Source: a virus. Taken from it: 20,730 nt of DNA. The notes under the pieces were generated by a model. It was not told the DNA's origin. It saw only the letters and a list, made by a program, of their open reading frames with translations, and did not search any database. Shown one piece after another: positions 2,963 to 15,880 of this stretch; positions within the stretch are counted from its first letter, which is position 1; each line of letters starts with the position of its first letter. The DNA is taken from positions 1 through 20,730 of the IMG/VR virus record IMGVR_UViG_3300018428_000245; one strand, given 5' to 3'. A program made the position numbers and the translations under genes.

Positions 2963-3229
2963 TTACTCCTTAGGATATTTATCTTTGACAGCCTGAATAG
3001 CTGCTTGAAATTCATCACCACCTAGACCTGCACGAAATATCATATCTAGTTGGTCGCCTATTGGTGGATATTCACCTCGTCTATTATCAATGTATGCTTT
3101 ACTATCTGCTAATGCTTGTGCTTCTTCAAGATTATAAGAAACTTGATTACCTTCAGAGTCATAAGCAACCATATTATCTATTGATTTAATAGACGGATTT
3201 AATTCATAAATTGCATCGTGTAGCATCAT
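2963..3229 (-). CDS. Small fibre-partner protein, first copy
   Basis: 88 aa. The start is MM (ATGATG, 3229 or 3226); the first ATG overlaps the stop of the fibre gene in an ATGA junction. The C-terminal 39 residues (RRGEYPPIGDQLD, then QAAIQAVKDKYPKE) closely match the partial gene at 1-285. The N-terminal half differs (LNPSIKSIDNMVAYDSEGN). Small proteins with this YPxIGDQLD...VKxKYPK ending are common beside phage fibre genes. I infer a fibre accessory or assembly factor. It is not a secreted protein and shows no catalytic motif. Confidence 0.82.
   Translation of the reverse strand: MMLHDAIYELNPSIKSIDNMVAYDSEGNQVSYNLEEAQALADSKAYIDNRRGEYPPIGDQLDMIFRAGLGGDEFQAAIQAVKDKYPKE
3046..3077 (-). repeat. 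Direct repeat copy B (fibre-partner genes)
   Basis: Second copy of the 32-bp near-identical repeat at 81-112, in the same orientation about 3 kb away. It could be a site of homologous recombination between fibre cassettes. Confidence 0.85.
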
Positions 3230-3912
3230 CCTGCTATCTCCATTAAAGTCATTATTGTTCTATTACTTCCTCTAACTCCGTTATATACAGTTCCTGAACC
3301 AGTAACAAAATGTCCAATTACTTTATAAGAAATTGTGCTTGTAGTAGCAGGAGAGTGTAAAAAATTAATAGCGTATGGAACAGATACATTTGATGTTGCA
3401 TTTTTATTTGTTGCAATACCATCTCCACCAAGAATAAGTCTTGAAGTAGCATTATATTCAATATCTGCTTGTGATTCTGCTACACCAGTATTGTATATAT
3501 TTCCAGTTACAAATATTAATATTTTGTTTGATGTAGAAGATGGCGTAATTGATACACTCGGCCCGAATGTATTATCATATCCAGATGTAAAACTATGTGA
3601 ACCACCAGAAGTATAACCATTCACCACTTGTAGTATTTTACCAGTAGTAATACCAGTCAAGGCACTACCATCAATAGCGGGTAAAGCACCACTTAATTTT
3701 GAAGAAGACATTCCGTCAATCTTAGCATCAGTAATTGCACCATCTGAAATACGAGCTATAGGTAGAGTACCAGTAGTTAATTTACTAGCATCTACACCAG
3801 AAGCTACCTTAACATTTGTTACAGCACCATCTTGAATATCTTGGGTCTCAACAGTATTAGTTGAAACACTACTTAGTGAAACACTTTGAGATTTACCAAT
3901 ATAACCTGCCAT
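3226..3912 (-). CDS. Tail-fibre-like protein, first cassette
   Basis: 228 aa. It begins MAGYIGKSQ, the same six-residue start as the 172-aa protein. Residues about 30-90 carry fibre-type repeats (ASKLTTGTLPIARISDGAIT, then DAKIDGMSSSKLSG and IDGSALTGITTG), which in known fibres form triple-beta stems. The C-terminal domain begins GKILQVVNGY near residue 92, contains SVSITPSS and ends in TIMTLMEIAG. It resembles the C-terminal domain of 287-952. The start codon overlaps the upstream stop (TAATG), with GGAG eight bases before. Its small partner gene follows with a 4-nt overlap. Likely a virion fibre or head/tail decoration. Confidence 0.82.
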   Translation of the reverse strand: MAGYIGKSQSVSLSSVSTNTVETQDIQDGAVTNVKVASGVDASKLTTGTLPIARISDGAITDAKIDGMSSSKLSGALPAIDGSALTGITTGKILQVVNGYTSGGSHSFTSGYDNTFGPSVSITPSSTSNKILIFVTGNIYNTGVAESQADIEYNATSRLILGGDGIATNKNATSNVSVPYAINFLHSPATTSTISYKVIGHFVTGSGTVYNGVRGSNRTIMTLMEIAG

Positions 3913-4230: not shown

Positions 4231-6015
4231 CTATCCTAAGGCTATTGCAAAAGCAAGAGCATTACCTGCATCTTCTTTTCCGTCTAAAGTTGTCTGTAAA
4301 TTTGTTATATCACTAATACTATGTGTGTGACCTACTGCTGCAATACCAGCCTCAGCTAATGTTTGATTTTCCCAAACACCACTTGTAGCATTCCATTGTA
4401 AAACTTCACCATCAGTATTGCTTGTAATTAATACATCGTGTAGCTCATCAATTTCCCAACCATTGTTAACGTGAACAAAGATTGTACCTTCAGTACTATG
4501 AGCACGAGTTACCCAACCTAAATGTACTAAATGATTAGGACTTGTAGGTTTAGTATTTGTAAATTGACCAGATGTAGTGTCTAACCATAAGGCATCACCA
4601 TCACTATAAGTTAATGGGTCAATATTTAAACCTCGTACTAGACCTTCTGTTGTGACACGTCCTGTACTATTATTACTAATATCTTCTGTAGCAATTGCAA
4701 AAGTTGACGCTGAACCTGATTCTGTACTAGCATTTGCTAAATCAATTGTGACTTTATTACCAGAAGCTCCAGTAACTTTTACAACATCACCATTACTAAT
4801 ATCAGCCCCAGATTCGTTCTTAACAACTAATCCTAATTCTTGTCCTAATTGATATGTGACATCAGCACTAACAACTAAATCAATAGTTTCATCATCAGTA
4901 TTCCAAGATAATGTTCCAGCATCACCTGTTCCACCAGTTACTTGAAAACTAGGAGCAACTAGCTCACCAGTCATTGTGTCACCACTAATACTTACAAAAG
5001 ATGATGGGCTTACTGCGACATCACCCCAAGCCGAACCATCATAAATTCTACTAATATTGCTTGTCGTATTAAAATACCAATCACCAGCATTTAGTGGGTC
5101 ACCATTTAAATCAACTGTTGGGTCACTTGCTTGACCACCTAGATATGTACCTTCCATACTATCTAGAGCTGCCTGAGCTGCTGTAGCACTTGCTGCCGCA
5201 TCACTTGCTGAAGTCGCTGCATTAGTCTCACTTGTAGCAGCATTAGTTTCTGAAGTAGATGCATTATTAGCTGAGGTTAAGGCATTACTTGCGTATGTTT
5301 GAGCAGAATTTTGACTTGTTAAGGCATTAGATGCACTCGTAGCTGCTGAAGTTGCACTTTGAGAAGCTGCAGTTGCAGAAGTAGCCGCATTCGTTTCAGA
5401 AGTTGCTGCAGCTGTTGCACTACTTGCTGCTGCTGTTGCACTTGTTGCGGAGTCTGTTGCACTACTAGCACTTGCTGTTGCACTTGTTGCTGAAGCACTT
5501 GCACTTGTGGCTGATGCTGTTGCACTATTTGCTGCATTTGTCTCCGAGGTACTTGCATTAGTTTCACTTGTAGCTGCTGCTGTAGCACTTGCTGCGGCCG
5601 CTGTTGCACTAGCTGCTGCTGCTTGGGCATTTGCTAAGGCTGTCTCAATCTCAGATATAGCCTCATTTAAATCATCTGCAACATCATTAATATCAGCAAT
5701 GTTTGCTAAAATTGTAGCAATATCACCTAGGGCATCTGCAACATCATTAATATCAGTAATATTTGCTGCAACAATACCTGCGTCAGTAGGTGATGTTAAA
5801 ATATCAGCTGGTGTTGTACCAACTTGTAAAGTTAATGTCTGCCCACTTGTAGGTGGTGTAAAAAATACCGCAGCATTATTAATTAAATCATAGTCATCTC
5901 TTGATACTACTGTACCATCAAGGAACACTCTGATATGGTCCTCAGATATAACATCAAAATCTGAGGAGAATATCTTTTGTGTTCCGTCAGTTGTAAAGAC
6001 TTTATCTGAAACCAT
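4231..6015 (-). CDS. Tail fibre, T7 gp17-like N-terminus with heptad stalk
   Basis: 594 aa. Residues 1-70 (KVFTTDGTQKIFSSDFDV, then DHIRVFLDGTVVSRDDYDL and PPTSGQTLTLQVGTT) match the gp17-type N-terminal domain that joins fibres to the tail. Residues 86-116 hold a repeated DIxDINDVADxL unit. Residues 132-285 form an Ala/Ser/Thr stalk of 22 unbroken heptads without Pro or Gly, a likely trimeric coiled coil. Residues 290-335 (YLGGQASDPTVDLNGDPL, then GDWYFNTTSN and YDGSAW) are a common fibre module. The distal part is beta-rich and ends GHTHSISDITNLQTTLDGKE. It follows the gp12 gene by 10 nt. T7 gp17 is 553 aa, so the length is usual, but the distal domains are not T7-like. Confidence 0.9.
   Translation of the reverse strand: MVSDKVFTTDGTQKIFSSDFDVISEDHIRVFLDGTVVSRDDYDLINNAAVFFTPPTSGQTLTLQVGTTPADILTSPTDAGIVAANITDINDVADALGDIATILANIADINDVADDLNEAISEIETALANAQAAAASATAAAASATAAATSETNASTSETNAANSATASATSASASATSATASASSATDSATSATAAASSATAAATSETNAATSATAASQSATSAATSASNALTSQNSAQTYASNALTSANNASTSETNAATSETNAATSASDAAASATAAQAALDSMEGTYLGGQASDPTVDLNGDPLNAGDWYFNTTSNISRIYDGSAWGDVAVSPSSFVSISGDTMTGELVAPSFQVTGGTGDAGTLSWNTDDETIDLVVSADVTYQLGQELGLVVKNESGADISNGDVVKVTGASGNKVTIDLANASTESGSASTFAIATEDISNNSTGRVTTEGLVRGLNIDPLTYSDGDALWLDTTSGQFTNTKPTSPNHLVHLGWVTRAHSTEGTIFVHVNNGWEIDELHDVLITSNTDGEVLQWNATSGVWENQTLAEAGIAAVGHTHSISDITNLQTTLDGKEDAGNALAFAIALG
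5161..5622 (-). repeat. Heptad-repeat stalk coding region (22 units)
   Basis: Codons 132-285 of the fibre gene encode 22 consecutive seven-residue units with the loose consensus [A/N]-A-[A/S]-T-S-x-T. Position 5 is Ser in 20 of 22 units and position 2 is Ala or Ser throughout. Units such as NAATSET and NASTSET occur more than once. At the DNA level this is an imperfect 21-bp tandem repeat. It may be prone to length change by recombination or slippage. Confidence 0.85.
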
Positions 6016-8106: not shown

Positions 8107-8697
8107 CTAACTCCTAATTGGTCGAGGATTCCTACTTCTTGTAATAATTCTACTTGCGTCTGTTGAATCAAAGATATTATAATTATTTGTATCTACATCG
8201 TGCTCTAGTGCTTTTTCATAAGCGTGCTGTTCGTCATCCATAAGGACACGAATAACATCTGTAGAACCGATTAATCTTTGATATGTAATTCTTGCTGCTT
8301 TAATTGCGATATAATATGCAATTGTATATGGGATGTCATCAAAATCTAAGTCCCATACAACGTCTACTTTATGAGTAGAGTTAGGATCAAACTGAAATGT
8401 TTTATCATCTTTATCGTACAGTTTGTTATCCTTCATAATATATTTGTTTGATCCATCAGAACTTTCTAAACGTAGAATGCTCGATGCAAGGGCAACATAA
8501 CCGTTTGTATCTGCAGTTAAGTCCCAATCATAATCTGTGTTACAGTTGTAACCTTCTGTAAGAATAGTCTTACGAGTCTCCGTAAGAATCTCTAGGGCTG
8601 TACTAGCTTCGTATACATCCGAAATGTTTGTTGCAGTCGTAAGAGTCATCTCACCGATAGTTTGCAAGGCAATGTTTACGCCTTCTAATTCAGTCAT
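8107..8697 (-). CDS. Tail tubular protein A (T7 gp11-like)
   Basis: I chose the internal start MTELEGVNIALQTIGE because GGAG lies seven bases before its ATG (8697); an in-frame upstream extension to 8715 has no ribosome site. The result is 196 aa, close to T7 gp11. Gp11-type features are the helical N-terminus (LEGVNIALQTIGE, ALEILTETRKTILTEGYNCN), the WDLDFDDIP segment and the helix KAARITYQRLIGS. In T7 it forms the adaptor ring joining portal to nozzle. It is the first gene after the capsid terminator and is probably expressed by readthrough or from an unseen promoter. Confidence 0.93.
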   Translation of the reverse strand: MTELEGVNIALQTIGEMTLTTATNISDVYEASTALEILTETRKTILTEGYNCNTDYDWDLTADTNGYVALASSILRLESSDGSNKYIMKDNKLYDKDDKTFQFDPNSTHKVDVVWDLDFDDIPYTIAYYIAIKAARITYQRLIGSTDVIRVLMDDEQHAYEKALEHDVDTNNYNIFDSTDASRIITRSRNPRPIRS

Positions 8698-8713
8698 AGA
8701 ATTTCTCCGTATC

Positions 8714-8743
8714 AAAAAAAAGGGACACCCGAAGGCATCCCTT
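8714..8743 (-). terminator. Intrinsic terminator after capsid gene
   Basis: On the minus strand a 10-bp stem (AAGGGATGCC pairing with GGTGTCCCTT, two G-U pairs) closes a TTCG tetraloop, and the T-rich side continues into a run of eight T. It begins eight bases after the capsid stop codon. T7 has its main terminator (T-phi) at the same place, after gene 10, where partial readthrough lowers tail gene expression. Confidence 0.93.
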
Positions 8744-8750
8744 AGTTATA

Positions 8751-9806
8751 TTAGTCAGTTGTAACCATCTTGATTACACAACCATTGTTTAATGTACCGA
8801 AGCCCATTGCATAAGATGAAGTCATTAGATCACCTAATTTCTCAGGGATGTAATTAACTTCAGACTTGATGTCAAGAAGCTTAACAACACCAACAGCATT
8901 TTGAGTGAACATATAGATGTCACTTGTGCCAATGTTATTAGATACTAAGATGTTGTGACCAGCTACCTGAACAACACGACCAGTATCGATACCACCATTA
9001 GAACCTTGAGTCATATCTTTGTGAACTGCACCAGACTGTACTAGACGGTTGTAGTTCTTAGGAGATACAACTACGTAACGATCACCTGGAATATCTTGCT
9101 CGTCCATAGTAGTTTGAGCATCATAAAGAGCAGCAAGGATAAGATCACCCTTATCGCCATTTGAAGATGCACCTGCAGTAGCTACTGAAAGTACTGAAAC
9201 TGCTTCTACGTGACTAGCATTCCAAGCACCTGCTGCGTGAGCTGAAGTGAATACGTATACAACATTGTTGTAAGATACACGATCACCAACAGCGTAAGCT
9301 ACAGTTGCAGAAAATGCAGTAACGTCTGAGTATGGTTGACCTTCGCCACCATTAGTGTCATCAGTGTTTGCAGCATTAGCCACACAGTTATCAAGTTGTG
9401 TGATAATTGCTTGGTCTACTGTTTTAGCTAGTCTACGACCCATTTCAACAGAATACTGTGAACGAGTCTCATAGTGTTGCATTGCTTCTTCGAAGTTATC
9501 AACGAATACTGAAGCATATTTAAGATCATCAATCTCGATTACACGCTCACCAGCATTGATTAGGTTAGGTGTAATATCAGTTCCAGGAACGTGAGTTGAT
9601 GTTGCTGTCTCGTACTTACCGATAACTGCGAATGATGCAGACTTACCAGAGTTAATTGTACGAGTTTGTACTAAAGGCAAAAAGATATTTGCTGATTCGA
9701 AAGCTGTAAGTACTTCGCCAGAAAACACCTTAATCGCCAAGTCGCGATCGGAATAACCAGAGCCGTCACGACCTGTACCGATACCTTGTGAAGGATTATA
9801 AGACAT
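8751..9806 (-). CDS. Major capsid protein (T7 gp10-like)
   Basis: 351 aa. Gp10-type landmarks are LAIKVFSGEVLTAFESANIF, SGKSASFAVIGKYE, EEAMQHYETRSQYSVEMGRR, LAKTVDQAIITQLD, then PGDRYVVVSPKNYNRLV and, near the end, NAVGVVKLLDIKSE and SSYAMGFGTLNNGCV. It adopts an HK97-type fold in its family and builds the icosahedral shell. Residues about 159-205 look like an inserted small beta domain (VAYAVGDRVSYNNVVYVF) where T7 gp10 has a much shorter loop, while a later T7 loop is missing here. AAGGAAG precedes the ATG after a structured leader, and a strong terminator follows. Confidence 0.96.
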   Translation of the reverse strand: MSYNPSQGIGTGRDGSGYSDRDLAIKVFSGEVLTAFESANIFLPLVQTRTINSGKSASFAVIGKYETATSTHVPGTDITPNLINAGERVIEIDDLKYASVFVDNFEEAMQHYETRSQYSVEMGRRLAKTVDQAIITQLDNCVANAANTDDTNGGEGQPYSDVTAFSATVAYAVGDRVSYNNVVYVFTSAHAAGAWNASHVEAVSVLSVATAGASSNGDKGDLILAALYDAQTTMDEQDIPGDRYVVVSPKNYNRLVQSGAVHKDMTQGSNGGIDTGRVVQVAGHNILVSNNIGTSDIYMFTQNAVGVVKLLDIKSEVNYIPEKLGDLMTSSYAMGFGTLNNGCVIKMVTTD

Positions 9807-10025: not shown

Positions 10026-10793
10026 TTAAAACTTGCTTAAAGCCACACGCCTTTGTACCTCAGCACGGAATGCTGGGTCTTTCTTATATTTTGGATTTGA
10101 CATTTCAGCCATCATTTCTTGCTTACTTGCAAAACCTCGTGTCGATGTGTTTGACACTTCCCCTTTTACTAGATTAGGACCTTTAGCACTTTGATATTGT
10201 GCGTAAAGACCTTTAATTGCAAACTCAGATTGAGCTTCATTTGCTAATGACGCATTAAATGCTTGGATCTCAGACTCAGTTAAATTGTCTTGTGCCCAAG
10301 TAACCATCTCATTATATTCTGATTCACCACCAGCTAAACTATACATCTTATTTAATGTTTGTCCTGCTAGTGCTTCTTGACCTGCAATGTATGCATCCAC
10401 CATATTTTGTGGGATACCTGCATCTTCTAGTTGTTTATAGGTGTCAGGGGAGAGTTGTCCAGTTTCTTGATACTCACTTTCAAGTGCAGTGTAGTCAATA
10501 CCAGCTTGTGCTGTTACTTCTTCTGCATCTGCTTTAGTAGTATCTTCTTCTTGTGGGGCTTCAGCTTCAGTTTCTGTTGCTGTCTCTTCCGCAGGTTGAC
10601 CTAGTTTTGTTTGTAAGTGTTCGTAAGCTTTCTCCAGTTCTTCAACTGTTTTATACTTACCTGCAAGCATACGTTCTTGATCGGTCTGCATCGATTCAGT
10701 TACTTCTGTCTCGTGCTGCTCAACCTTATCGATCATTGCCTGATCGTGCTCACTTAGATTTGCTTGTGGATTTTCCTGCTGATTTTGCTCCAT
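10026..10793 (-). CDS. Capsid scaffolding/assembly protein (T7 gp9-like)
   Basis: I chose the start MEQNQQENPQ (ATG 10793-10791), because GGAGG lies six bases upstream; the upstream in-frame extension to 10826 reads Lys/Arg-rich and has no ribosome site. The protein is 255 aa and highly acidic in its first half (TETEAEAPQEEDTTKADAEE), with a YKTVEELEKAYEHLQTKLGQ motif. The C-terminus (SNPKYKKDPAFRAEVQRRVA, then LSKF) is typical of gp9-type scaffolds, whose basic tail contacts the capsid protein. It guides procapsid assembly and leaves before or during DNA packaging. T7 gp9 is 307 aa. Position between portal and capsid agrees. Confidence 0.92.
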   Translation of the reverse strand: MEQNQQENPQANLSEHDQAMIDKVEQHETEVTESMQTDQERMLAGKYKTVEELEKAYEHLQTKLGQPAEETATETEAEAPQEEDTTKADAEEVTAQAGIDYTALESEYQETGQLSPDTYKQLEDAGIPQNMVDAYIAGQEALAGQTLNKMYSLAGGESEYNEMVTWAQDNLTESEIQAFNASLANEAQSEFAIKGLYAQYQSAKGPNLVKGEVSNTSTRGFASKQEMMAEMSNPKYKKDPAFRAEVQRRVALSKF

Positions 10794-10911
10794 TCTCCGC
10801 CTCCATTTTTTTAGCTTCAGCCACAATAGCAGCTACACGAGCTGCCTGGGCTTTCATCATAATCTCTTGAGGTGTTGCTTCAACTGCCTCATCCTTTTTA
10901 TAGTCTGACAT
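10750..10911 (-). CDS. Small Ala/Lys-rich protein between portal and scaffold
   Basis: 53 aa, read from ATG at 10911, directly after the portal stop (TAAATG). GGAGGG, made from the last portal codons, is three bases from the ATG. The protein (MSDYKKDEAVEATPQEIMMK, then AQAARVAAIVAEAKKMEAEN) looks like a single amphipathic helix with a basic Ser/Lys tail. Its last 44 nt overlap the scaffold gene in another frame. I know no function; the position suggests a minor head-assembly factor. The small size makes this less certain, but ribosome site and junction are convincing. Confidence 0.7.
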   Translation of the reverse strand: MSDYKKDEAVEATPQEIMMKAQAARVAAIVAEAKKMEAENGAKSAGKSTSKSK

Positions 10912-12429
10912 TTACCCTCCTGTCATTTGTTCACTTGCTACTTGACCTGCCATAGCTCCGCCTTGAGAAGCTGCAGCATCCATACCCATTTGACCAGCTT
11001 GCTGCAACATTGCTTGAGCTTGTTCTTGTTGGATCTGTTCTTGTGTCTTAATAAGACCTTCTGTTTCAATACCTAATGATGTACCGATCTGTTCAATAAC
11101 AGCATCCACATTAGTATACTGAGCAAATATCTCAGGACCAAGAAGTTGTTGTAGTGTTTGTGAAAATTGTACTAATTTATTATAATCGTGTCCACGACCT
11201 AGTGCTTCAACACCAGTAACAATAACTGGTTCAACTAGACCTTCTGGGAACTTAACCTTATTAGAATGCATTAATAACTTAATTAACGGTAATTGCAATT
11301 CTTGTGTTAGAATGCTATAGATACCTCCAAGAGCATCTTCAAGCTCTCCTGCCATAAGTCGTACTTCTTCAGCAGTGACACGCTCAGCATCACGTCTTGC
11401 AGATTCATTGAGTAGGAAAGCACTCGCTAATCTCCTTTGAATGTCATTCATTGTTTGGTATGCAATGTTTAAGTCGTGTGACTTATCCATCTGCAAAGTA
11501 GAAACATCAGTCGCTCTACCTTTAACAATTGATCCTGACTGTGCCTTAGCAACCGTAGATATATTTGTACTACCTACAGGATCAACAAAGAATAAAACCT
11601 TAGATGCTGCTGCAGATGCTTCCACAATACTCATAGATAATGCTTCTAGTGAACGAAGGTCACCTAAGTATTGCTCAACAAGTCCACGTCCATAATTCTC
11701 ATTATGAATTGCAGTCCATCTTAAAGGAATGTATGGTAAATTTTTCTCTGTATATGTACCACGTGTTCCTGGAATTTCTTGCTCTAGTGCCTCTTGATAA
11801 ACATCGAAAGACTTTCCATTCCACTTAACACTGGTGTACAAGTCGATGGGTTTAGTTTGATCACCTTCCTTGTCCATTCCTTCTGGTAAATCATCCCTAC
11901 GTATCGACTCTTTAGTTAGGATTTCTTTTAACTTACCTTCAGGATTACGCTGTACAACGTATGAATTAAGATTAAAAACTCTAGTTCCATCATCTTTGTC
12001 TCGGTAAACTAGGGCATTACCTGTAGCAACTAATAATTTTAGTGCTTCAAAGATAGGCACACGTAGAGCTTCACGTTCGATCTGTGCAGATAGTGCACGC
12101 TCCAAATCCGCTAAACGTTCTTGTACTTGACCTGCCTGACCTTGTTGCTGCAATTCCATCATTGCAATCTTGTCAGGTACAAATCTAAAGAATGGAGCAT
12201 TAGGTGGTAGTAGAGAGAGTAACAGCTTACTTGCTAAGTTATTAACTGCACGAGCACCTAAGGATTGATAAGGTGTATCTAACCTTGATTCCTCAGTATG
12301 TGACTCATTGTCTACTAATAGTGAAGGAATAGTTAGCTCAGTACAATGTTTAGCTCTATCTAGTACAGTACTTCTTTCACCATCTAATTTTGTCCAACGG
12401 TTCTTTAAGCTAACTTCATTCTCATCCAT
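10912..12429 (-). CDS. Portal (head-tail connector) protein, T7 gp8-like
   Basis: 505 aa (T7 gp8: 536). Portal features include LDTPYQSLGARAVNNLASKL, LLSLLPPNAPFFRF, the clip/stem region RGLVEQYLGDLRSLEALSMS, and RRDAERVTAEEVRLMAGELE, which matches the stem-crown pattern of gp8 portals. The C-terminus is Gln/Met/Gly-rich (QEQAQAMLQQAGQMGMDAAA). The protein forms a 12-subunit ring at one capsid vertex through which DNA is packaged and ejected. The start (MDENEVSLKNRW) follows the gp7.3-like gene by two bases. Confidence 0.95.
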   Translation of the reverse strand: MDENEVSLKNRWTKLDGERSTVLDRAKHCTELTIPSLLVDNESHTEESRLDTPYQSLGARAVNNLASKLLLSLLPPNAPFFRFVPDKIAMMELQQQGQAGQVQERLADLERALSAQIEREALRVPIFEALKLLVATGNALVYRDKDDGTRVFNLNSYVVQRNPEGKLKEILTKESIRRDDLPEGMDKEGDQTKPIDLYTSVKWNGKSFDVYQEALEQEIPGTRGTYTEKNLPYIPLRWTAIHNENYGRGLVEQYLGDLRSLEALSMSIVEASAAASKVLFFVDPVGSTNISTVAKAQSGSIVKGRATDVSTLQMDKSHDLNIAYQTMNDIQRRLASAFLLNESARRDAERVTAEEVRLMAGELEDALGGIYSILTQELQLPLIKLLMHSNKVKFPEGLVEPVIVTGVEALGRGHDYNKLVQFSQTLQQLLGPEIFAQYTNVDAVIEQIGTSLGIETEGLIKTQEQIQQEQAQAMLQQAGQMGMDAAASQGGAMAGQVASEQMTGG

Positions 12430-12893: not shown

Positions 12894-12995
12894 TTACTTT
12901 CGGAAAGGGTTTAGTTTATCAATCCAATCCCACACTTTACTGTAGTCTTTGGAGTGTAAACGCCACTTAGCTTTCCAGGCTTTATAACCTACCAT
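12894..12995 (-). CDS. 33-aa basic/aromatic mini-protein after nrdB
   Basis: A 34-codon frame from ATG 12995 to TAA 12894, overlapping the end of nrdB by 7 nt. AGGAG lies seven bases before the ATG, inside nrdB. The product (MVGYKAWKAKWRLHSKDYSK, then VWDWIDKLNPFRK) is rich in Trp and basic residues and could form an amphipathic helix. No family is recognised. It is too short to exclude chance, but the ribosome site and the way the ORF fills the gap up to the promoter support it. Confidence 0.5.
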   Translation of the reverse strand: MVGYKAWKAKWRLHSKDYSKVWDWIDKLNPFRK

Positions 12996-13948
12996 CCCCA
13001 CTCTCCTTTCATACCAGCAGCTGAGTAATCAGTTACTGTACCTTCGAAAAAATTCTTAAAACTATCTCCAGCAATAATCCATTCTACCCAAGGTAGGGGA
13101 TTATCTTTAACACCATAGTTAGGTTTAAGTCCTAGTTGTATAAGTCTACGATCTGCTAGATGCCTGATATAATCTTTGACTTCGCCTTTTTCAAGACCCT
13201 CGATGCTTCCCATTTTATAAGCAAGATCGATAACTTTGTCCTCCAAGGCAACCGCAGTTCTGACCATTTCGTAAATTTCTTTTTTAAATTCATCTGTTAC
13301 TACCCTCGGATGTTCATTACAAAACTGTCTAAACAAACGTGACATCCCTTCAACGTGCATAGACTCATCTCTAATAGACCACTCAACTACCTCACACATA
13401 CCCTTCATCTTACCGAAGCGTTGATAGTTTAGCAGCATAGCGAATGCTGAGAACAATGACATACCTTCGTTAACACAAGTCTGAGCTAATGCTTTAGCTA
13501 GTCCGTGCAACGTAGATGTATCGTTGTCCTTCATAAACTCAATCTTATCTTTCATTTGTTTGTAGTCTAAGAAAGCTGAGTATTCACTATCTTCAAAACC
13601 TAAGGTGTCATTTAGTAATGCATAGGCACGTTGATGTGTACCCTCACGATTAGCAAACGACATAATCATATTCCTAATCTCGTGATTACGAAACTTAGGT
13701 ATATATAAATCACAATAGTTTTGTGCTACCTGTACATCTGATTGTGTAAACAGACGAAGGATCTGAGTAATGTGGTTCTTCTCTTCTTCAGTGATAGTAC
13801 CACGTTTCCACTGATCTACATCTTCCTGTAATTTAACTTCCCATATACCCCAATGGATCTTCTCGTGCTCTTCAGCAATTTCCATTGCCCACTGATGATT
13901 AAATGGTTTATATGTTTGTGCCTCATCTAGTACTCCTACCTCAAGCAT
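12989..13948 (-). CDS. nrdB: Ribonucleotide reductase, class I small (radical) subunit
   Basis: The frame opens at 13960 (323 aa), but GGAG lies inside those first codons, so the start is more likely ATG 13948 (MLEVGVLDEAQ, 319 aa) or 13951. Numbered from 13960, the di-iron ligands are D75 (FTQSDVQ), E106 and H109 (REGTHQRAY), E165 (CVNEGMS), E199 and H202 (RDESMH); the radical tyrosine is Y113. All are intact, so it should be an active tyrosyl-radical di-iron subunit that passes the radical to NrdA. It overlaps the upstream zinc-finger gene slightly. The pair converts host ribonucleoside diphosphates into dNDPs for phage replication. Confidence 0.95.
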   Translation of the reverse strand: MLEVGVLDEAQTYKPFNHQWAMEIAEEHEKIHWGIWEVKLQEDVDQWKRGTITEEEKNHITQILRLFTQSDVQVAQNYCDLYIPKFRNHEIRNMIMSFANREGTHQRAYALLNDTLGFEDSEYSAFLDYKQMKDKIEFMKDNDTSTLHGLAKALAQTCVNEGMSLFSAFAMLLNYQRFGKMKGMCEVVEWSIRDESMHVEGMSRLFRQFCNEHPRVVTDEFKKEIYEMVRTAVALEDKVIDLAYKMGSIEGLEKGEVKDYIRHLADRRLIQLGLKPNYGVKDNPLPWVEWIIAGDSFKNFFEGTVTDYSAAGMKGEWGW

Positions 13949-14120
13949 CATATTCTCCATTCAATTGATCAGCCATATTTAATATGTTAGTTAAACAATC
14001 TGCACAAAAAGTAACAGGAAGGATACCAAAGTAACCTTGTATCCCTCCCTCCTCTTCATCATACTTCCATCCACAAATTGTGCATTCTTCTGGTGGTTCT
14101 AACCCTGACAGCTTAGACAT
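13941..14120 (-). CDS. Zinc-finger-like CxxC/CxxC protein between nrdA and nrdB
   Basis: 59 aa, from ATG 14120 to TGA 13941, overlapping the end of nrdA by 22 nt and the start of nrdB by about 8 nt. The product (MSKLSGLEPPEECTICGWKY, then GILPVTFCADCLTNILNMAD) has CTIC and CADC pairs 22 residues apart, a zinc-ribbon pattern. The CxxC pairs also recall thioredoxin/glutaredoxin active sites, but there is no room for that fold. Acidic residues follow the first pair. Being wedged between the two subunits suggests it acts with ribonucleotide reductase or is co-expressed with it. I do not know a proven function. Confidence 0.8.
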   Translation of the reverse strand: MSKLSGLEPPEECTICGWKYDEEEGGIQGYFGILPVTFCADCLTNILNMADQLNGEYDA

Positions 14121-15880
14121 TCTGTGTCCTCCTTAAATGATTCGAGTTTAATACGCTCTACCTTTTTACCAATCTGCTCTGCAGTAGCACCAGTATTAGT
14201 ACGTAAATAGTAAAGACCTTTTAGTTTCTTACCCCACGCTGCGAGATGTACTTTGTTCACGGAAGCCTTCTCGCTACCCGCAGGGAAGAACAAGTTTACG
14301 CTTTGACCTTGACATATGTATGGTTGTCTAGTCGCTGCGTGTTCTACTACCCATAACTGATCGAGTTCAAATGCAGTCTTAAATACATCCTTCTCCCAGT
14401 CAGATAGATAATCTAAATGTTGTACAGAGCCTTCGTGGTGAATAATACTCGACCACTGTTCCTCTAACCAATCTTTTTCAAAACCTAGTCGTAGTCTGTG
14501 TTCGTTCAACACTCTAGCTAGGTGTCTATTCTTAACTAAATGAGACCCAACGCGTGTCCTATGAGTATAAGCATTAGACTTAATGGGCTCAATAGAAGCA
14601 GAAGTACCGCAGATGATACTACTATTAGCATTAGGAGCGATAGCAAGAAGATGACTATTACGTTTTCCGCTTCCTTTACCATCAGGATATTCTCCACGTT
14701 CTGCAGCTAAAGCTTGTGTTGCCATCTCTGCTTGATCTTTAATTAACCTAAACATCTTTAAATTCTGTCCAGTAGCCTGTGCAGATTCCCAAGGAATATT
14801 CTTAGATTGTAAGTATGAATGGAAACCCATTGCACCTAGACCTAAGGAACGTTCCTGGAATGCTGAGTGAGTAGCTGCTGCTAATTCTTGAGGTGCGTGT
14901 TCAATGAATTGTGTAAGTACATTATCTAGCATCGTAATTAAATCTGATATTAGTGATGTATCTTTCCACTCATCAAACAACTCTAGGTTAACAGAAGACA
15001 AACAACATACAGCAGTACGTCCTTTCTCTGTAGGTAAGTGAATCTCATTACATAAATTACTACCGTGAATCTTAAGTCCCTTATCTTTTAAAGGTTGTGG
15101 TAGTTTACGATTCGCCTCATCGATAAAGTTTAGATATGGTTCACCAGTTCTAAATCTTACTTCGAGGAGTCTTTGCCAAAGGTCTCTTGCACGTACTGTA
15201 TCACGGACTTCACCGTTACTTGGATCAGTAAGACTCCAAGGACTATCATTGATAACACAATCCATAAAGGAATCAGTAATATTGACAGCATTATTAATGT
15301 TAAAACACTTGCGATTAGTATCCCCTCCAGTAGGGACTCTAAGGTTGATGAATTCAATAATGTCTGGATGTGAGATGTCAGTATACGCAGCATAACTTCC
15401 TTTTCTAGTTTGTCCTTGTTTATAAGCGGTCATCGCTGAGTCGCTTACTTTAATAAATGGAATTGGGCCTGGAGCTTTGTCCGATACGGGTCGAACATCA
15501 CCCCAGTGTCCTCCTACTCCCCCTCCTTTAACACTTAACCAAGCCAACTCTGACTGATGTTTAATAAGACCATCGAGATCGTCAGCAACATAACTAAGAA
15601 AACAACTAATAGGAAGTCCTCTTGGCTTTTCACCTGGGGCAGGAGCGTTACTAAGGATAGGGCTACTAAACATAAACCAGCCACTGCTAACAGCATCATA
15701 TAAACGTTGAGCAAGTTTCTTATCTCCTCCGCTATAAGCTAAGCAAGCTCTAGCGTATGCTTCTTGTGGTGATTTTTCTTTACCACGTAAATAATAATTA
15801 GTCACCAAGTCTCTTGCTTGGTCAGACATCTTCTTGTCTTTCTTGCGATCAATTACGATCCCTAAGTAATCACTCCTCAT
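14099..15880 (-). CDS. nrdA: Ribonucleotide reductase, class I large (catalytic) subunit
   Basis: 593 aa. Catalytic features are present: C93 (LPISCFLSY, equivalent to E. coli C225), N275/C277/E279 in SNLCNEI (N437, C439, E441), C292/C293 in AVCCLSSVNLELF (C462), the Y557-Y558 radical relay pair (KGLYYLRT), and the C-terminal redox pair C588/C591 (ECLSCQG). The enzyme reduces ribonucleoside diphosphates. E. coli NrdA is 761 aa; here about 130 residues are missing before C93, including the ATP-cone domain, so dATP feedback inhibition is probably absent. The start ATG (15880) overlaps the previous gene by 11 nt; AAGGA lies nine bases upstream. Confidence 0.96.
   Translation of the reverse strand: MRSDYLGIVIDRKKDKKMSDQARDLVTNYYLRGKEKSPQEAYARACLAYSGGDKKLAQRLYDAVSSGWFMFSSPILSNAPAPGEKPRGLPISCFLSYVADDLDGLIKHQSELAWLSVKGGGVGGHWGDVRPVSDKAPGPIPFIKVSDSAMTAYKQGQTRKGSYAAYTDISHPDIIEFINLRVPTGGDTNRKCFNINNAVNITDSFMDCVINDSPWSLTDPSNGEVRDTVRARDLWQRLLEVRFRTGEPYLNFIDEANRKLPQPLKDKGLKIHGSNLCNEIHLPTEKGRTAVCCLSSVNLELFDEWKDTSLISDLITMLDNVLTQFIEHAPQELAAATHSAFQERSLGLGAMGFHSYLQSKNIPWESAQATGQNLKMFRLIKDQAEMATQALAAERGEYPDGKGSGKRNSHLLAIAPNANSSIICGTSASIEPIKSNAYTHRTRVGSHLVKNRHLARVLNEHRLRLGFEKDWLEEQWSSIIHHEGSVQHLDYLSDWEKDVFKTAFELDQLWVVEHAATRQPYICQGQSVNLFFPAGSEKASVNKVHLAAWGKKLKGLYYLRTNTGATAEQIGKKVERIKLESFKEDTECLSCQG

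Follow-up and report, generated by a model that had tools for sequence, protein, structure and literature searches.

The window analyzed here is the whole 20,730-nucleotide stretch of viral DNA (IMG/VR record IMGVR_UViG_3300018428_000245). It carries structural genes in the T7-like order portal–scaffold–major capsid protein (MCP)–adaptor–nozzle, and within the MCP gene lies a short inserted module that is the subject of this analysis. The relevant features are the following.

4231–6015, minus strand: tail fiber gene; the distal part and part of the stalk differ from the related contig L024
6026–8104, minus strand: nozzle (tail tubular protein B), without the module in the window (PF25675, 1.1e-167)
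8107–8715, minus strand: adaptor (tail tubular protein A), without the module in the window (PF17212, 5.6e-31)
8751–9806, minus strand: MCP, T7 gp10A-like, HK97 fold, 351 amino acids (Pfam PF21703, phrog_267, Foldseek)
8757–9447 (about 690 nt), minus strand: MCP tract running from near residue 120 to the C-terminus, present in L024 as a different allele without the module, about 83% identical over aligned bins (mismatch map)
9207–9332, minus strand: inserted 42-residue CBM5/12-like module, MCP residues 159–200, YSDVTAFSATVAYAVGDRVSYNNVVYVFTSAHAAGAWNASHV (PF02839; a single gap in module-free relatives)
9222–9224, minus strand: codon of W195 in the HxAGAW motif, which aligns with the Trp that contacts chitin in CBM5/12
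9378–9473, minus strand: predicted spine helix of the P-domain, residues 112–143, upstream of the insertion loop (AlphaFold secondary structure)
10026–10826: scaffold-like frame, a neighbor of the MCP gene
10912–12429: portal, a neighbor of the MCP gene

Profile, fold and gene order all identify the product of 8751–9806 as a T7 gp10-like HK97-fold major capsid protein. The Gp10A-like Pfam profile PF21703 matches it at 1.8e-28 and phrog_267 (major head protein) at 1.9e-62, and the best Foldseek matches in the PDB are P-SCSP1u (8i4l), T7 (3j7v) and Kp9 (7y23). The nearest named record is podophage Lau218 (Autographiviridae), with 50% identity and an MCP of just 292 residues; no relatives of the window MCP were found in the bacterial genomes searched. 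Genes resembling those for the small and large subunits of ribonucleotide reductase (12989–13960 and 14099–15880) separate the structural genes from the replication genes, and both are also present in Lau218. The protein encoded at 1328–2407 contains a long glycine-rich domain (PF21722, 7.4e-17). Two similar gene pairs are found downstream of the tail fiber gene (1–285 with 287–952, and 2963–3229 with 3226–3912); the short proteins of both pairs end in GEYPPIGDQLD...IQAVKDKYPKE and each adjoins a larger protein of one general type, an arrangement suggestive of cassette duplication. In a related group of sequences (L071–L080 and L082; for example L076:3165–3790), the MCP gene is broken after about codon 60, between GKSA and QFPVIG. 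The interruption of about 600 nt matches the group I intron family RF00028 (5e-10 and 6e-5, below the gathering score) and encloses an HNH-endonuclease-like frame.

When the window MCP is aligned with T7 gp10A, P-SCSP1u, Lau218 and uncultured relatives (63–75% identity), residues 159–200 stand opposite one empty block of about 41–42 columns. Both flanks, GEGQP before the insert and a strand after it, are retained in the module-free relatives, and T7 gp10A comes near the window MCP in overall length only through extra residues elsewhere. The gap relative to T7, P-SCSP1u and Lau218 rules out the possibility that the segment is a gp10 core element. A preliminary description of the locus had proposed an insertion in the MCP without a counterpart in T7 gp10, and the single clean gap bears this out: the extra segment is genuine, with sharp boundaries. 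Its C-terminal end had been set slightly too far, as the span given was 9190–9335 and the actual one is 9207–9332.

By profile, the module belongs to the CBM5/12 superfamily. In a search of 24,736 Pfam models, the whole MCP matches CBM_5_12 (PF02839) over residues 164–200 with 32.7 bits (E = 7.7e-8), above the curated cut-off of 26.2 bits, and the segment alone reaches 36.5 bits (4.8e-9), with CBM_5_12 as its sole Pfam match. Judged by these scores the match is not a chance motif, and the CBM5/12 resemblance that had first been suggested is upheld. Among solved structures, the matches of a 13-module profile include 1ED7, the chitin-binding domain of ChiA1 (4e-4), and CBMs of NodB-type deacetylases, whereas a PHROGs search with the segment alone returned insignificant matches only.

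The HxAGAW motif is nearly invariant among module versions. The position of W195 is occupied by Trp in all 12 modules from MCPs of the window family, in 25 of 28 from a gut MCP family described below and in 25 of 27 from other virion proteins. In CBM5 domains the exposed Trp contacts chitin along with the preceding aromatic residue and a third aromatic (PMC8449059). The exposed aromatic pair typical of CBM5 (Y-W or W-W) is absent from the module, which has A194–W195 at the aligned positions. The CBM12 domain of 1ED7 presumably has G-W at the aromatic-pair position, and A194–W195 would thus argue against a typical CBM5 more than against a CBM12. With respect to the core aromatics of CjCBM5 (Y265 and W299), the Tyr is retained as Y171 and the Trp is Val in the module; the first Trp of CBM5/12 is replaced by Phe. 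To judge from these residues, the invariant W195 favors binding, while the loss of the partner aromatic and of the core Trp speaks against labeling the module a proven CBM. With Ala before W195 and Val in place of the last core Trp, weaker binding or a different specificity is possible. With several hundred copies per head, even weak binding could still matter. We infer that the ligand is a glycan.

A structure prediction of the kind proposed in the preliminary description supports a folded insert. AlphaFold2, run on a 30-row alignment, gave a moderate model of the MCP overall (pLDDT 71, pTM 0.73), and the insert is its best-predicted part, forming a confident local fold with pLDDT of about 91–92. 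Strands are predicted at high confidence for residues 176–179, 182–186 and 200–202, to be compared with the three-stranded antiparallel sheet of CBM5/12. In this model, the insertion loop follows the spine helix (112–143) and precedes a strand of the A-domain (205–208). The G-loop of P74-26, which also follows the spine helix, contacts an external decoration protein (PMC6775164), and the G-loop region docks external decoration proteins in PhiM1 as well (PMC11440229). An outer position of the module is therefore supported, if not proven, and we consider it most likely that the module faces outward on the capsid; in principle, the loop could face inward or into the capsomer interface. The T7-like capsid of P-SCSP1u has no decoration proteins and contains 415 MCP copies (PMC10575957).

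Comparison with L024, a 5.6-kb contig, indicates how the module may be exchanged. L024 and the window are 98–100% identical in the nozzle, the adaptor and the initial stretch of the MCP. Mismatches crowd between 9447 and 8757; upstream they are few, and just downstream there are none, with identity back at 100% right after the MCP stop codon. The tract without the module in L024 most resembles (about 82%) the alleles found in further relatives that lack it. This pattern is the expected trace of homologous recombination between co-occurring strains, and recombination is the mode of exchange that it suggests. On a tree of the window-family MCP core, with the insert removed, two to three changes account for the distribution of the module; a single origin of the module in this family is neither shown nor rejected (AU p 0.21). 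The remaining large divergence between L024 and the window falls in the tail fiber gene, in part of the Ala/Ser-rich stalk and in the distal part. There, the distal fiber (window 4311–5390) is replaced by a different sequence in L024, between flanking DNA that is 98–100% identical. The window version of the fiber includes a weak match to Phage_cement_2 (PF09956).

A scan for the module located it in a second MCP family, phrog_1623, in phages and prophages of gut Clostridia. The phrog_1623 protein of Dulem virus 37 is annotated as the major capsid protein and is encoded between protease and connector genes. The MCPs of this family in Streptomyces phages are without the module, and one of them matches the HK97-family profile TIGR01554 up to the would-be module point. 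The gain in phrog_1623 MCPs amounts to about 43 residues after EDLYLNGDE, a site that we take to be the glycine-rich loop following the spine helix in the HK97 family. Based on these sequence motifs and the HK97-family profile, the module looks to occupy the corresponding loop in both families; an AlphaFold model of a gut MCP (pLDDT 38, from a shallow alignment) was excluded from the fold search.

The module is found in 15 of 53 phrog_1623 rows, which requires at least six changes (10 on the best tree). Here too, a pair of contigs, L170 and L208, is mostly 99–100% identical on either side of the MCP region, within which identity drops to 80–96% and the module is present in one and absent from the other. 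L024, L170 and L208 are metagenome contigs, and assembly chimeras are a possible but less likely source of these patterns, which involve a double switch within one gene in each of two families. When the two MCP families were compared with hhalign after removal of the inserts, their profiles gave no match (probability 0.2), yet modules from one family share up to 64% identity with those from the other, and mean module identity is 0.46 between them versus 0.52 inside the second. What the two MCP lineages visibly share is thus the module and not the capsid sequence. Lachnospiraceae, Oscillospiraceae and other Firmicutes account for most occurrences of the second family in bacterial genomes; Faecalibacterium sp. 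I4-3-84 (L236) is one bacterium with a prophage of this family. The module is present at 13 of 62 such loci and at none in Bacilli; a habitat link was dropped because the loci are too few and too related.

The module also resides in virion proteins other than capsid proteins. In L058, a relative of the window, the MCP lacks the module; by comparison with the corresponding window proteins, its adaptor and its nozzle each carry an inserted copy (37 and 41 bits, respectively). These bit scores are those of our own module profile, on which the assignment rests, the Pfam scores (20–21 bits) being under the curated cut-off. Fusion of the L058 MCP to a module by stop-codon read-through was rejected, as the frame right after the MCP stop codon is an ordinary adaptor gene. 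A second CBM match (in the L017 genome) and a third (in L058) were also set aside, being below the cut-off and unmatched by the module profile. The tail tube protein (PF18906) houses the module in L115 (4635–5840) and L116, and fiber-like proteins carry it as well. A very large protein (L099:2–5449) with four copies provides the nearest relative (69%) of the window-family module outside capsid proteins. In two other MCPs (L053:2980–4056 and L083:2992–3636), a different insert of similar size, WGASQDWVASTTVF..., occupies the same site; it is weakly similar to the module (E = 0.07 and 4e-4) and is possibly a second kind of plug-in domain.

Selection keeps the protein intact. In module-bearing MCPs, pN/pS is 0.36 within the module and 0.18 in the core, rough values, as many pairs are close to saturated at synonymous positions. 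The module is under constraint, though looser than that on the core.

The interpretation that we favor, and think probable though far from assured, is that of a mobile adhesion module on the virion surface, outward-facing and directed at glycans. Homologous recombination in the flanking capsid sequence would swap alleles with and without the module between near-identical phages; the same module has entered an MCP family of unrelated sequence and, in other phages, proteins of the adaptor, nozzle and tail tube as well as large tail proteins. On the head exterior, it would be displayed in about 415 copies if T = 7 as in T7-like phages. Weak binding at many points to polysaccharide of the host envelope, to extracellular polymer or to GlcNAc-rich particles could then raise residence time near hosts, and adsorption would benefit. 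Because the module recurs on different virion proteins, surface binding explains it better than the bracing of one capsomer. Such a brace, with the module touching neighboring subunits and stabilizing the capsomer without any ligand, is nonetheless the alternative that we take most seriously, unlikely as it appears. The chitin-binding-like domain of T4 gp23/gp24 bridges subunits (PMC3185693, PMC9958956), the insertion loop adjoins the E-loop contact region in other phages and the full binding triad of CBM5 is not kept. However, near-identical relatives manage without the module while adaptor and nozzle are unchanged, the second MCP family has gained and lost it repeatedly, and the module is also found in adaptor, nozzle, tail-tube and large tail proteins, where a capsomer brace would be pointless; the T4 domain, moreover, sits in the E-loop and the window module elsewhere. 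A compensating change within the MCP is conceivable, in that the rest of the swapped tract (the A-domain) also differs in L024. The absence from near-identical strains and the presence in tail proteins likewise weaken the suggestion in the preliminary description of a built-in decoration protein, and a cement or decoration role is less likely.

It is also conceivable, at a distinctly lower probability than for the brace, that the module is a near-neutral passenger spread by recombination through tolerant virion loops and kept folded only because misfolding harms the capsid. Its promiscuous presence in many virion proteins, its frequent gain or loss and a rate of protein change about twofold that of the core would fit such a history, but purifying selection and the invariant positions, HxAGAW included, across unrelated host proteins do not. 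We give very little weight to the idea that a variable surface domain alters recognition of the head by host- or predator-derived factors without serving adsorption through glycan binding. The module does differ together with the tail fiber between near-identical strains; the CBM homology, however, indicates polysaccharide.

A broader extension of the adhesion interpretation is put forward tentatively, and we would sooner doubt it than rely on it. The loop after the spine helix may be a general plug-in site of the HK97 fold, at which recombination moves a surface-binding module in and out in unrelated lineages, together with the receptor-binding portion of the tail fiber, and the shell would then be a fast-evolving adhesion organ matched to host or habitat. 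MCPs are usually seen as conserved building blocks and their added domains as fixed structural features; here, a recognizable binding-type module comes and goes with the allele of the capsid gene between strains that otherwise share 98–100% identity. If the module faces outward, head adhesion becomes a testable and evolvable trait, and the HK97 fold would seem to have a site that naturally tolerates insertions. The outer shell, besides the tail, may help such viruses stick to surfaces, and matched alleles with and without the module are available for a clean experiment.

The homology of the module and its mobility are established. It resembles CBM5/CBM12 domains (PF02839; the Bacillus circulans ChiA1 domain, 1ED7) in a homology over the cut-off, a length of about 40–45 residues, the pattern Y..GD.V.Y...VY and a Trp near the end, but it resides in a capsid protein and not in an enzyme, lacks the partner aromatic, has Phe for the first Trp and has the last core Trp replaced. 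The T4 gp23/gp24 insertion domain is likewise a small chitin-binding-like domain on an HK97-fold capsid protein (PMC3185693). That domain, however, has about 60 residues, is inserted via the E-loop and is structural (PMC9958956, PMC5957328), whereas the window module has 42 residues, follows the spine helix and is present or absent between near-identical strains; the difference in insertion point rules out a T4-type I-domain. The P22-type I-domain, another insertion into an HK97-fold MCP, is a Greek-key barrel in the A-domain sheet (PMC5701804), and is ruled out because the window module precedes the A-domain strand and is only 42 residues long. The long G-loops of P74-26 and phiRSA1 occupy the same part of the fold, but are E-loop-locking hairpins and not CBM homologs. 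The promiscuous Ig-like domains (Hoc, pb10, gp10B-type extensions, the BIG2 domain of phi29) are likewise small beta domains on capsids and tails that are thought to be weak surface binders (PMC7602432). They differ in fold and size and are mostly terminal extensions or separate proteins, whereas the window module is built into an internal loop of each MCP copy; its length and its sole Pfam match, CBM_5_12, rule out an Ig-like decoration domain (a beta sandwich of about 80–100 residues). In the open-licence literature that we searched, no MCP is described whose alleles carry or lack a CBM5/12 module. Small binding domains on phages are known already; what is unusual here is the protein that hosts the module, its exchange at strain level and its reappearance at a matching loop in two MCP families unrelated to each other.
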